64,000 bases of DNA from Pseudothermotoga elfii DSM 9442 = NBRC 107921 (GTDB taxonomy: Bacteria; Thermotogota; Thermotogae; Thermotogales; DSM-5069): NCBI RefSeq assembly GCF_000504085.1, contig NC_022792.1, positions 1,392,001 through 1,456,000 of the forward strand, in the 5' to 3' direction. The position numbers were made by a program, and so were the translations under genes. Every line of letters begins with the position of its first letter. The first letter of the stretch is position 1. Positions 397 to 3,798 of this stretch are shown in pieces. Below the pieces are notes generated by a model, which was not told where the DNA came from, ran no database searches, and saw nothing but the letters and a program-made list of their open reading frames with translations.

Positions 397-921
397 TTAA
401 TCCTCTCAGTAATCGATCAAATCAGTTTTTCATTACACCAGATTGAGATAAATATGAAAAATCAAATTGTAATTTGTAAAAAAAATAAGACATCCCATTT
501 TTCTTTATTAGATTAGTGCCAGTGCTTACCGATAATTATATTATTTGAGCTTCTTACTTATGAATCAACTCTGAGTTTTGTGTCATGAGCCTGCTTTTCT
601 GTTATAAATGTCTAATTTGATTCTGTTTAAATGAGCTTTTGAAAGAGACAACGCCTATGCAATATAATGTACCTTATATTGCATCAGTGAAATTCATTCG
701 AATGCTTTATTCAAAAGCTGCTTCACAATAGCTAACACTTAACATATTTGAGCAAATTTTCTATGCACTATATTCTGGTGTACGTACTCAACAGTAATTT
801 ATAATCCATTGTTATTTTCCAGATTTACCAAGTCGTAATATACATGTCAACAGTGATTCATTATGCAAAGATAATCTTTTATTAGAAATCGATATTTTTT
901 TCACGAAAGGGAGGTGCAGGT
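397..921. other. gene-free stretch with palindromes
   Basis: No convincing gene is seen in these 525 bases. Short open frames here have no family signature and no ribosome site. The stretch contains a nested palindrome group at 634-719 (listed separately), a consensus-like TATAAT at 800-805 with no good -35, and a strong GGGAGGTG ribosome site at 909-916 that serves the TusA gene. It probably holds the promoters for the leftward gene at 396 and the rightward sulfur operon. Confidence 0.6.
634..719. repeat. nested inverted repeats, candidate regulatory site
   Basis: AGCTTTTGAA at 634-643 is exactly repeated in inverted form as TTCAAAAGCT at 710-719. Inside lies a perfect 9-bp inverted repeat GCAATATAA (659-667) / TTATATTGC (674-682) with a 6-base loop, and a perfect 10-bp palindrome CATTCGAATG at 695-704. 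There is no T-tract, so this is not an obvious terminator. An operator or an RNA structure for one of the flanking genes is the likely reading. No known regulator can be assigned from sequence. Confidence 0.4.
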
Positions 922-1161
922 ATGGCAAAGTATCAAGTGGCAAAAAGTCTGGATGTTCGTGGAGAAGTCTGTCCTGTTCCAGATGTTGAAACAAAAAGAG
1001 CCCTGAAGGAAATGAAACCAGGAGAAATTTTGGAAGTATGGATCGACTATCCCATGTCCAAAGAGAGAATCCCTGAGACAGTCAGGAAATTGGGGCATGA
1101 AGTTCTGGAAATTGAAGAAGTTGGCAATAGCGAATGGAAAATCTACATTCAGGTCAAGTAG
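922..1161 (+). CDS. tusA: TusA/SirA-family sulfur carrier protein
   Basis: A 79-residue TusA-fold protein with the family motif CPVP; the sulfur-accepting cysteine is C17 in RGEVCPVPD. TusA proteins carry sulfane sulfur as a persulfide and pass it to further carriers (DsrEFH/TusBCD) for thiolation or sulfur metabolism. The length is normal for the family. Start ATG follows a strong GGGAGGTG site. It is first of five closely packed genes (TusA, YeeE, DsrE, DsrF, DsrH), and the TusA domain fused to the downstream regulator (3250-3798) is clearly its paralogue (shared DYP-SKERI segment). The assignment to the fold is firm; the exact donor and acceptor are inferred. Confidence 0.92.
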   Translation: MAKYQVAKSLDVRGEVCPVPDVETKRALKEMKPGEILEVWIDYPMSKERIPETVRKLGHEVLEIEEVGNSEWKIYIQVK

Positions 1162-1177
1162 AAGGAGGTGACTTTCC

Positions 1178-2173
1178 ATGGTTTGGGCAGGGCTTTTAGT
1201 AGGCTTCATATTTGGAGTGATTCTTCAGCGGGGCAGAATTTGTTTTAATTCCGCGTTCAGAGATATTTTAATCTTTAAAGACAACTATCTTATGAAACTT
1301 GCAGCACTCGCCATAGCCCTCGAATCGATCAGCCTCCTTCTGTTTGCTCAAACTGGACTTATAGCATTAAATCCTCCTGCTCTCAATTGGTTGGGAAATA
1401 TCCTGGGCGGTTACATCTTTGGACTGGGTATGGTTTTAGCAGGTGGCTGTGCTTCTGGAGTAACCTACAGAACCGGTGAAGGCATGACTACAGCTTGGTT
1501 GGCAGCTATTTTCTATGGACTAACTGCATATGCAACAAATTCTGGACTTTTCTCACCATGGAAGAAATGGATCAGCACTTTCAACGTTGTTGTACAAAAT
1601 AATCAATCAATTTATGCGCCAAAAACAGGACCAACCCTGGCAACCGTTTTGAATATTAACCCATGGATTGTTGCCCTAATCTTTGCTGCTCTGCTGATTT
1701 GGTATGCTTTTGGAACAAAAACTTCTGAAAGATCAACAAAATTGAACTGGATCGTTGCCGCAATCCTCATAGCGGTACTCGCACCGATTGCTTGGTGGAC
1801 GAGTGCAAAAGCAGGGAGAAATTACGGACTTGGCATCACAGGTGGTTGGGTTAATCTCTTCAGTGTCTACACCAATAATAAACCACTCTCCTGGGATGGC
1901 GCAGAAATAATAGGTATTATTTTGGGGGCACTTATTTCTTCTATCGCCGGCAAAGAATTCAAGCTAAGAATGCCCAAAAACCCAAAAACCTATTTGCAAG
2001 TCATTGTTGGTGGAATATTCATGGGTTTTGGAGCTGCAACAGCTGGCGGATGCAATATCGGGCATTTTCTAACGGGCGTTCCCCAGCTGGCTATATCTTC
2101 TATATTAGCCTCTATATTCTTCATACTTGGTAACTGGACAATGGCCTGGATATTGTTTGGCAAGGAGAGATGA
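1178..2173 (+). CDS. YeeE/YedE-family transporter, probable thiosulfate uptake (TsuA type)
   Basis: A 331-residue polytopic membrane protein of about nine to ten hydrophobic segments. It has the repeated YeeE/YedE architecture: QRGRICFNSAFRD near the N-terminus, AGGCASGVTYRTGEG in the middle and AGGCNIGHFLTG near the C-terminus. These contain three conserved cysteines, which in the characterised thiosulfate transporter TsuA line the substrate path. Start ATG at 1178 follows GGAGGTGACTTTCC. It lies 16 bp after tusA and 3 bp before dsrE. In characterised systems TsuA works with a TusA-like partner, as here. Thiosulfate specificity is inference from family and context. Confidence 0.85.
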   Translation: MVWAGLLVGFIFGVILQRGRICFNSAFRDILIFKDNYLMKLAALAIALESISLLLFAQTGLIALNPPALNWLGNILGGYIFGLGMVLAGGCASGVTYRTGEGMTTAWLAAIFYGLTAYATNSGLFSPWKKWISTFNVVVQNNQSIYAPKTGPTLATVLNINPWIVALIFAALLIWYAFGTKTSERSTKLNWIVAAILIAVLAPIAWWTSAKAGRNYGLGITGGWVNLFSVYTNNKPLSWDGAEIIGIILGALISSIAGKEFKLRMPKNPKTYLQVIVGGIFMGFGAATAGGCNIGHFLTGVPQLAISSILASIFFILGNWTMAWILFGKER

Positions 2174-2176
2174 TTT

Positions 2177-2533
2177 ATGAAAATAACAATACAAGTGATG
2201 GTTCAACCTTACACTTATGAAGATATTGACACTGCAATCAAAATTGCTGAGGCAGCTGTTGAAAAAGGACATGAAGTAACTTTATTCCTATTTGCAGATT
2301 CGGTAATTTGCGTGAATAAAAATATCAAACCACTTAAAATTGATAGAAATATTCCTGAAAAACTCAGAACTTTGATTAATTCAGGAAAATTGAAAGTTGA
2401 TATCTGTGGCATTTGCATGGATTATAGAGGTATAAAAGAAGATATGATCATAGATGGTGCAAAACCAAGTGGATTGCCAGAATTAGCAGCACTCTTATCC
2501 ACAACTGATAGGTTTATAAATCTGATGGCCTGA
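2177..2533 (+). CDS. DsrE/TusD-like sulfur relay protein
   Basis: A 118-residue soluble protein of the DsrE/DsrF superfamily. The N-terminal strand-helix region and GHEVTLFLFADSV are typical. The conserved sulfur-binding cysteine of the DsrE/TusD branch is most likely in CGICMDYRG (residues 77-85), close to the position of Cys78 in E. coli TusD. It is therefore the probable persulfide-carrying subunit of a DsrEFH-type complex with the next two genes. It starts 3 bp after the transporter stop (ATGATTTATG; ATG at 2177). A DsrC/TusE partner is not visible nearby. Confidence 0.83.
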   Translation: MKITIQVMVQPYTYEDIDTAIKIAEAAVEKGHEVTLFLFADSVICVNKNIKPLKIDRNIPEKLRTLINSGKLKVDICGICMDYRGIKEDMIIDGAKPSGLPELAALLSTTDRFINLMA

Positions 2534-2543
2534 GGTGGGGAAA

Positions 2544-2897
2544 ATGAGAAAATTACTTTTTGTTGCTTACCAGTCCCCAGTGGGAAGCATATGGGTAAAC
2601 GAAGCATTTAGAACAGCGTTTGGAATGTATGGAGAAGATCTTGAGCCAAGTGTTCTTCTCTTAGATGAAGCCTGTATTGCTCTTTCAAAAAACACCAGAC
2701 CTGAATCTCTCGGTTTGTTACCACTTTCTATATGCCACAAATACATAAAACGATACGCTACCAAAGTTTATGTTCTAAAAGAGGACATTGAAAAATTCAG
2801 CATAAAAGAAATAGAGGAAAACTTTGGAGCACAGATAATAGAGAAAAAAAGCCTGCCTGATTTCTTTCACGGCTTTGATTACGTGATCTTCATGTGA
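2544..2897 (+). CDS. DsrF/TusC-like sulfur relay protein
   Basis: A DsrE-superfamily protein of 117 residues from the ATG at 2544. I prefer this start over the in-frame GTG at 2535, because that GTG is part of the ribosome site GAGGTGGGG placed just right for 2544. Features typical of DsrF/TusC are LLFVAYQSPVGS at the N-terminus, the VLLLDEACIALSKN segment, and the C-terminal DYVIFM. It lies between DsrE- and DsrH-like genes, so it is probably the middle subunit of the heterohexameric sulfur-transfer complex. Confidence 0.8.
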   Translation: MRKLLFVAYQSPVGSIWVNEAFRTAFGMYGEDLEPSVLLLDEACIALSKNTRPESLGLLPLSICHKYIKRYATKVYVLKEDIEKFSIKEIEENFGAQIIEKKSLPDFFHGFDYVIFM

Positions 2898-2906
2898 GGT
2901 GATACA

Positions 2907-3170
2907 ATGGCATTAATACTTGTCAAGTACGGAGTTGATCACCCTGTTGAGAAACTTAAGATCGAAAATGCTAAAGCCGGAGATAAAATCGTACTTATCC
3001 AGAATGGTGTTTTTTGGGCTCTTAAAAAATACGAGACAAAAGCAAAGATATTTGCAATCAAAGATGATTTTCTTTCAAGAGGGTACAAAGAAGAAGATTC
3101 ACAGGTTCCATTGATTGATTATCCACAATTTATTGAACTTGTTGAATCTGAGCCACAGTTTATAGGTTAA
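2907..3170 (+). CDS. DsrH/TusB-like sulfur relay protein
   Basis: An 87-residue protein of the DsrH/TusB family (LILVKYGVDHPVE at the start, GDKIVLIQNGVFWAL in the middle, LIDYPQFIELVE near the end). Start ATG follows GTGAGGTGATACA. It completes a DsrE-DsrF-DsrH set in the same order as classical dsrEFH and tusDCB. The protein contains no cysteine at all, so unlike some DsrH proteins it cannot itself carry persulfide sulfur and is probably structural in the complex. Confidence 0.8.
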   Translation: MALILVKYGVDHPVEKLKIENAKAGDKIVLIQNGVFWALKKYETKAKIFAIKDDFLSRGYKEEDSQVPLIDYPQFIELVESEPQFIG

Positions 3171-3172
3171 TA

Positions 3173-3181
3173 TGGTATAAT
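3173..3181 (+). promoter_or_regulatory. extended -10 promoter for the HTH-TusA gene
   Basis: TGGTATAAT is a perfect extended -10 element (TGN-TATAAT) just after the dsrH stop codon; no good -35 is present. The predicted start point, near 3188, would place the inverted repeat 3191-3216 at the very 5' end of the transcript. Confidence 0.55.
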
Positions 3182-3190
3182 AGCAATATA

Positions 3191-3216
3191 GATGCCGCGA
3201 TAGCCATCGCGGCATC
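3191..3216 (+). promoter_or_regulatory. GC-rich perfect inverted repeat: terminator or operator
   Basis: GATGCCGCGA (3191-3200) and TCGCGGCATC (3207-3216) form a perfect 10-bp stem with a 6-base loop. It lies 20 bp after the dsrH stop and 33 bp before the HTH-TusA start. It could terminate the sulfur operon, but no T-tract follows (tcaattaatc). Its position just downstream of an extended -10 fits an operator for autoregulation of the HTH-TusA gene equally well. Confidence 0.5.
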
Positions 3217-3249
3217 TCAATTAATCAATTAAAAGGTGATAATCCACAC

Positions 3250-3798
3250 ATGAAAAGATCTGATCTGGTCGAACTTTTTAAAGTGCTGGCAAACCAGAAA
3301 CGTCTTGATATACTAACTCTTCTTCTTGATAGCTGTTTAACTGTCAATGAAGTTGCTCAAAAACTTGGTATTAATATTTCAACAGCCTACAGATATCTAA
3401 CCCAAATGTACAAACAAGGTATACTTTCTGTAATCAAAACACCAGATGGTGATCGTTTTGATTTCTCTTCTAAACATATGCTTAGAGTTATTGAGGAAGC
3501 TATTAATTTCATATCAGACAAGCGTGGAACACCTGTTTTTGAACCCATTTATTATAACGATACCAATCTTTTTAAACCGAAAAGGGTTCTTGATTTTAGG
3601 GGTGAAACCTGTCCCATACCAGAATTAACTACAAGGAGAGAGTTGAAAGAACTGACCAATGGTGAAACATTGCTGGTTATAGTAGATTATCCCCTCTCCA
3701 AGGAAAGGATTATAAGTTTTTGCAGAAAGATGGGTTATAAAGTTATCGCCGTGGATGACAAATTAGATTCGAAAATCTACATAGAAAAAACTGGATAA
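3250..3798 (+). CDS. transcriptional regulator: ArsR-like HTH fused to a TusA domain
   Basis: A 182-residue two-domain protein. Residues 1-85 form a winged helix-turn-helix of ArsR type (LFKVLANQKRLDILTLL, then LTVNEVAQKLGINISTAYRYLTQM). After a short linker, residues 111-180 are a complete TusA/SirA domain with the sulfur-accepting motif CPIP (C121). The HTH carries no clear metal-binding cysteine pair. The TusA part resembles the carrier encoded at 922 (RGE-CP-P, DYP-SKERI, KIYI). ATG at 3250 follows AAAAGGTGATAATCCACAC. The simplest reading is a sulfur-responsive regulator of the adjacent sulfur operon that senses persulfidation at C121 or contact with DsrEFH. Architecture is seen; the role is inferred. 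Confidence 0.85.
   Translation: MKRSDLVELFKVLANQKRLDILTLLLDSCLTVNEVAQKLGINISTAYRYLTQMYKQGILSVIKTPDGDRFDFSSKHMLRVIEEAINFISDKRGTPVFEPIYYNDTNLFKPKRVLDFRGETCPIPELTTRRELKELTNGETLLVIVDYPLSKERIISFCRKMGYKVIAVDDKLDSKIYIEKTG

Follow-up and report, generated by a model that had tools for sequence, protein, structure and literature searches.

A candidate sulfur-responsive regulator of Thermotogota that joins an ArsR-type winged helix to a TusA domain

The 64,000-nucleotide stretch of the Pseudothermotoga elfii genome analysed here (the window) encodes a protein, REG, in which an ArsR-type winged helix is fused to a TusA domain. We propose for REG the role of a local, one-component regulator that serves the neighbouring tusA-yeeE-dsrEFH operon: incoming sulfur would be loaded onto residue C121, and REG would then activate transcription from an inverted repeat upstream of tusA, here called motif A. 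We consider this reading rather probable. It draws on features of the sequence, namely the fusion itself, its co-occurrence with the operon, C121 together with a set of docking residues, motif A with its fixed spacing to the -10 element, and a Rex-type site in the same promoter region. From these features we infer DNA binding by REG, the modification of C121, the source of the sulfur, and the sign of control.

Architecture of REG and its neighbouring operon

The initial annotation had described an ArsR-like winged helix fused to a complete TusA domain with a CPIP motif, and this description holds. A single open frame (3250-3798) contains both Pfam domains, each scoring above its cut-off (Table 1). 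The match to PF01022 (HTH_5, ArsR; 31.9 bits, cut-off 22) assigns the protein by profile to the ArsR/SmtB family, and the match to PF01206 (TusA; 69.6 bits, cut-off 28.6), along with the presence of the CPxP cysteine, assigns it to the TusA superfamily. The scores against two NCBIfam models, the ArsR metalloregulator NF033788 (33.9 bits) and the E. coli-type TusA equivalog NF001423 (40.1 bits), fall below the respective cut-offs of 55 (curated) and 78. An AlphaFold model built from 29 aligned sequences (mean pLDDT 87) consists of a winged helix, a long helix (residues 75-91), a linker of low confidence (approximately residues 91-110), and a TusA fold. When the model was compared with the PDB using Foldseek, the N-terminal half matched SmtB, CzrA, and HlyU best (PDB 1smt, 1r1u, and 4k2e), which have the winged helix fold in common with REG but not the TusA domain, and the C-terminal half matched YeeD and TusA.

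REG had also been placed directly after a TusA-YeeE-DsrEFH operon whose TusA is a paralogue of the sensor domain. Both statements are borne out: the operon occupies positions 922-3170, 79 nt separate it from REG, and its free TusA shares 49% identity with the domain fused in REG. The hairpin lying in this gap was considered as an operator for autoregulation of REG and dropped, as GC-rich hairpins found at the same place in other f1 genomes and in Thermotoga-like ones mostly have T-rich tails and look like terminators. Upstream of the operon and in the opposite orientation, the minus strand of positions 1-396 encodes a putative zinc- or iron-chelating protein with a CxxCxxCC motif (PF03692).

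Table 1. Features of the window around REG and the tusA-yeeE-dsrEFH operon
Feature	Position	Strand	Basis or remark
Motif A, inverted repeat TTTACCAAGTCGTAAT, candidate operator of REG	824-839	+	Shared upstream of tusA in relatives
Promoter-like pair TCAACA-17-GATAAT	847-875	+	-10 at 38 bp from motif A centre
Degenerate Rex-type site, 9 of 12 positions	889-906	+	Relatives have TTGWGA-N6-TCWCAA there
tusA, paralogue of REG sensor domain	922-1161	+	Profile match, sequence comparison
yeeE/tsuA, thiosulfate transporter	1178-2173	+	NF052577 TsuA, 590.7 bits, cut-off 400 (NCBIfam)
dsrE (TusD-like)	2177-2533	+	Profile match
dsrF (TusC-like)	2535-2897	+	Weak model match
dsrH (TusB-like)	2907-3170	+	Profile matches
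GC-rich hairpin between dsrH and REG	3190-3217	+	Terminator-like in relatives; T-rich tail weak in window
REG, ArsR-type winged helix and TusA domain, 182 aa	3250-3798	+	Open frame, Pfam, structure model, homologues
HTH_5 (ArsR) domain, residues 16-60	3295-3429	+	Pfam
TusA domain, residues 113-180	3586-3789	+	Pfam
CPIP motif, starting with C121 (codon 3610-3612)	3610-3621	+	C121 kept in 36/36 aligned homologues

Distribution of REG and YeeE among Thermotogota

Proteins matching both domains of REG were found in 37 of the 103 Thermotogota genomes searched, which shows that the fusion is no frame artefact; the count includes G080, a 78%-complete genome with a broken REG frame, and two further genomes (G035 and G101) have fragments at contig ends. 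YeeE, scored as present at E<=1e-20, occurs in 41 of the 103. REG is found in 36 of the 41 YeeE-positive genomes compared to 3 of the 62 YeeE-negative ones (both 36, YeeE alone 5, REG alone 3, neither 59; Fisher 7e-19, kinship ignored). The same tendency is seen by genus, with REG in 15 of 18 YeeE-positive and 1 of 20 YeeE-negative genera (both 15, YeeE alone 3, REG alone 1, neither 19; p 1e-6, kinship again ignored). Both genes are patchy inside genera. YeeE without REG is found in G031, G037, G052, G064, and G086, and REG without a YeeE match in G087, G092, and G101, one of which has a contig-edge fragment only. Because the YeeE of G086 (L094, 3034-4047) is an orphan, a distant homologue with 38% identity and without TusA, Dsr, or REG neighbours, REG accompanies 36 of 40 operons of the tusA-yeeE-dsrEFH type. 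The gene lies on the same strand, 4-86 nt past dsrH, at 22 of the 37 loci and nearby on the other strand at 10; it opens the operon in two, there is no dsrH in the locus in two, and one holds the broken copy.

Two loci have lost operon genes. The whole of L077 (G077) is in decay: yeeE and dsrEFH are gone, TusA has CHVP for CPxP, and REG is without its helix-turn-helix. G087 (L082, 4683-5117) keeps REG but has no yeeE, and the beginning of its tusA appears to run into the end of dsrE in a single frame of 144 residues, as if by deletion. A scan of a collection of genome contigs returned five loci that each match only the helix-turn-helix half of REG. In a tree of TusA domains, the 40 operon TusAs group together (support 0.944) to the exclusion of all fused domains, which are not a single clade under midpoint rooting. 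A gene for MnmA, the tRNA 2-thiouridine synthase, lies near the operon in opposite orientation in some genomes of the window's family (L038 and L041, and by sequence similarity L039), so that the TusA-DsrEFH relay, which is TusABCD-like, may also feed tRNA thiolation.

The tusA promoter: a candidate operator and the probable sign of control

Two regions, 600-900 and 3170-3250, had been proposed for DNA binding by REG. The first holds a conserved candidate operator (824-839), whereas the second contains the terminator-like hairpin and, by eye, no copy of motif A. The consensus of motif A is an inverted repeat, TTTACCA-NN-TNGTAAY. When each clade was scored with itself left out of the training set and compared with dinucleotide shuffles, p<=0.05 was obtained for 29 of the 32 tusA upstream regions of REG-positive operons, from seven clades; with the same scoring, the motif was not recovered upstream of tusA in the REG-positive L051, L056, and L088. 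None of the four intact REG-negative operons, which represent two lineages, has a convincing motif A: p was 0.67 in L062, 0.93 in L064, and 0.35 in L090, and the 0.050 of L063 comes from a Rex-like stretch on the minus strand without the ACC core. In operons that begin with REG (L059-L061), where the recognition helix of the protein differs, motif A was not recovered upstream of tusA, where L060 and L061 gave p values of 0.57 and 0.63 and the 0.04 of L059 stems from a minus-strand match lacking the ACC core; nor was it significant upstream of REG itself in L059 and L060 (p=0.28 and 0.41). A stretch noticed by eye in L060, CACCATTTTGTAAC, about 40 bp before TAATAT, was not counted as motif A.

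In the P. elfii genome, the 16-base motif of the window occurs perfectly only once, at 824-839, and all 22 other matches have three mismatches. A strict form of motif A has 16 exact matches in the 103 genomes. Ten of these lie at tusA promoters of REG-positive genomes, as the sole match in each, and six lie elsewhere (two in G036 and one each in G084, G026, G039, and G013). Since a reversed control also gave 16 matches in the 103 genomes, the strict motif is informative through its position only. A search for a wider regulon with this motif in the 103 genomes found none, and because the ten strict matches at tusA promoters are each the only one in their genome, REG looks like a local regulator with a single target. 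The first candidate for an operator, a palindrome at 657-684, was dropped because it is absent from the tusA upstream regions of the relatives examined and occurs once in its own genome. This palindrome has 11-bp arms, lacks any second match in the genome with three or fewer mismatches, and overlaps the -10 of the strongest sigma-70-like match in the region (639-668).

The decayed L077 keeps motif A (p=0.047) although its REG has lost the helix-turn-helix, as might be expected if another factor bound the motif, with REG acting elsewhere or its TusA domain serving only as a structural or dimerisation module. We regard this as improbable, given that motif A accompanies REG in six clades and is unconvincing in the four intact operons without it, and that C121 is invariant.

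The geometry of the promoters bears on the sign of control. It was analysed in 29 distinct promoters (30 sites, less one duplicate; L051 and L088, where no site was found, were excluded). The distance from the centre of motif A to a -10-like hexamer matching at least five of six positions is exactly 40 bp in 13 promoters from three families, and 38-41 bp in 18; the next commonest offset in the range of 20 to 61 bp is shared by four promoters, against a background of some 0.01 per position. At a distance of 16-18 bp, a -35-like hexamer (at least four of six positions) is present in four of the 29, including the window (TCAACA, four of six, 17 bp). Activation is favoured by this near-fixed placement of motif A just upstream of a promoter that is usually without a -35, and the position and spacing of the operator thus suggest that REG is an activator. 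This is an argument rather than proof, because many -10 boxes of the f1 genomes match at four of six positions only, and it is weaker in the window because of the -35-like box there. Most characterised ArsR proteins are repressors, which counts against the activator reading.

Control could also have the opposite sign, with the thiol form of REG repressing from motif A and persulfidation of C121 releasing it, as in SoxR and sHdrR of Hyphomicrobium. The ArsR fold, which is closest to SmtB, CzrA, and HlyU, and the -35-like box of the window promoter would fit such an arrangement, as would the finding that sulfur-bridged SoxR loses DNA binding (PMC12423496; articles with PMC numbers are cited throughout from excerpts of their text). 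Yet motif A sits at a near-fixed distance to the -10 and on the upstream side of the -35 position, most promoters have no -35 within 16-18 bp, and the position of a repressor is already filled in most relatives by a Rex-type site. Repression is therefore an alternative that we take seriously but think rather unlikely.

The Rex-type site, motif B, has the form TTGWGA-N6-TCWCAA. In most relatives it follows the -10 directly, at no more than 100 nt from the ATG, and matches at 10-12 of its 12 positions. The match is complete in L042-L044 (p=0.002) and in L050, amounts to 10-11 positions in most others, and drops to nine in the window, L083, and L084. A first reading of motif B as a CRP/FNR-type site was replaced by Rex, because the half-sites equal those of the Thermotoga maritima Rex operator used for crystallisation, TTGAGA-AATTTA-TCACAA (PMC8836258); TTGAGA and TCACAA recur identically in the Thermotoga-like tusA promoters L042-L044. 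Unlike REG, Rex would be a second regulator of the same promoter. The initial annotation had anticipated neither this site nor an operator geometry that points to activation. The genome of P. elfii encodes two Rex-type N-terminal domains, and a Rex-regulated operon with TusA has been reported in Caldicellulosiruptor (PMC8579813, in part). Because the site in the window is degenerate, the case for a Rex input (NADH/NAD+) is weaker for P. elfii.

The tusA-yeeE-dsrEFH operon of many relatives includes or borders on a gene for dihydrolipoyl dehydrogenase, located past dsrH or close to it and often accompanied by a gene for a lipoyl protein of the GcvH type (L051, L053-L058, L060, L063, L064, L073-L086, and L088-L090; the families were tested in L054, L073, and L089, and assigned by N-terminal sequence in the others). 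The lipoyl genes and the Rex-type site together suggest that carrier-bound sulfur is reduced by a lipoyl route driven by NADH. The GcvH homologue in the window's genome is located in an apparently ordinary glycine-cleavage cluster.

The TusA domain as a proposed sulfur sensor

The view of REG as a sensor-regulator put forward in the initial annotation agrees with its architecture, its co-occurrence with the YeeE operon, the conserved candidate operator upstream of tusA, and the invariance of C121. In an alignment of 36 REG sequences, from which the broken L080 was excluded, C121, P122, and P124 are each present in all 36. C121 is the only invariant cysteine; C29, the commonest cysteine of the helix-turn-helix, is found in 20 of the 36, and no other cysteine is general. 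REG thus lacks the two conserved cysteines of the ArsR domain by which SqrR, BigR, SoxR, and sHdrR are defined (PMC12423496). The absence of this pair, and of any invariant cysteine in the winged helix, makes it very improbable that REG senses metals or dithiol redox state like other ArsR proteins and carries its TusA domain as a mere passenger, an idea for which the weak match to the NCBIfam metalloregulator model could be cited.

The fused domain has the signature of YeeD/TsuB. YeeD, a TusA-like protein that docks on the transporter, uses its CPxP cysteine to decompose thiosulfate, and YeeE binding by YeeD of Spirochaeta thermophila needs E15, V16, C17, D42, Y43, E48, and R49 (PMC11073785, in part). 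The REG equivalents are E/Q119 (28 E, 8 Q), C121, D146, Y147, E152, and R153, with the last four conserved in 36, 35, 36, and 36 of the 36 sequences; the position of V16 is variable, with T, I, S, M, or L, or with V kept. E. coli TusA has D, R, and D in the alignment at the positions of Y147, E152, and R153. Unlike E. coli TusA, the fused domain therefore resembles YeeD in keeping the docking residues, and since the signature is that of a thiosulfate-decomposing protein, the signal may be thiosulfate acting directly, in place of the persulfide delivered to C121 by the operon's relay that the initial annotation had suggested. We infer that C121 takes up sulfur as a persulfide or a thiosulfate adduct.

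The conservation of D146, Y147, E152, and R153 would also be expected if the TusA domain of REG sat on YeeE and the state of transport, rather than sulfur loading alone, released or retained REG, as proposed for SoxT1B-SoxR, where the YeeE-like SoxT1B signals to SoxR (PMC11582611, in part). The same residues may, however, be kept only for persulfide chemistry or for the fold, the V16 position varies, and three REG-positive genomes are without a YeeE match, one of them with just a contig-edge fragment. We consider such a transporter-docked sensor unlikely.

Returning to activation by sulfur-loaded REG, the following mechanism can be envisaged. The winged helix of REG, presumably as a dimer, would bind motif A, centred about 52 bp before the predicted transcription start of tusA. 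Thiosulfate would enter through YeeE, and the TusA domain of REG would accept sulfur in either form on C121, whether by docking on YeeE, by reaction with thiosulfate, or by transfer from free TusA. Loaded REG would then most likely activate the promoter, which usually has a -10 and no -35, and the Rex-type operator just past the -10 would add a second condition in most relatives, high NADH. A more specific version, in which the YeeD-type domain docks on YeeE, C121 is loaded, and the operon is switched on, forming a two-input gate with Rex, is possible but doubtful. If true, it would mean that a transcription factor has taken over a sulfur-carrier protein as its input domain and that, with Rex, the gate opens when a sulfur acceptor is present and there are electrons to spare.

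Parts of this system have known counterparts. SoxR and sHdrR of Hyphomicrobium denitrificans have an ArsR fold like REG and respond to sulfane sulfur derived from thiosulfate, and the gene for SoxR has those for a YeeE-like transporter and TusA close by, which recalls the REG locus; in contrast to REG as proposed here, they are repressors with two sensing cysteines in the ArsR domain, and their TusA is a separate protein (PMC10451225 and PMC12423496). YeeD/TsuB, which works with YeeE/TsuA, shares with REG the CPxP cysteine, the DYPLSKER docking segment, and the kind of operon (PDB 8j4c and 8k1r), but occurs free in the cytoplasm and has no DNA-binding domain (PMC11073785). Whether TusA is the sulfur donor to SoxR and sHdrR is stated to be an open question in the available text of PMC11582611. 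REG combines a donor domain and a DNA-binding domain in the same chain. As it offers just one candidate cysteine and its candidate operator is defined, the idea of TusA as donor becomes testable with a single protein, a 40-bp probe, and a single point variant.

Searches of an open-access library turned up no account of a DNA-binding protein that uses TusA as its sensor; the excerpts of PMC5882156, PMC3840689, PMC9774590, PMC8579813, and PMC10451225 make no mention of a TusA-fused regulator. ArsR-type sulfur sensors, free TusA, and YeeD are already known.

A link to expression comes from T. maritima, whose yeeE, in one transcription unit with dsrE and tusA homologues, is 42.6-fold up with thiosulfate and slightly up with S0 (PMC9431562, in part). 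T. maritima TusA (PDB 1jdq) is identical over 72 aligned residues to the TusA of L042-L044 and L046, all operons with REG, and its sequence leads us to expect REG in T. maritima as well. If our reading is true, REG would explain the induction of yeeE, for which the cited part of that study names no regulator. REG suggests that the heat-loving Thermotogota sense incoming sulfur by loading it directly onto the gene switch of the uptake operon that this switch probably controls.
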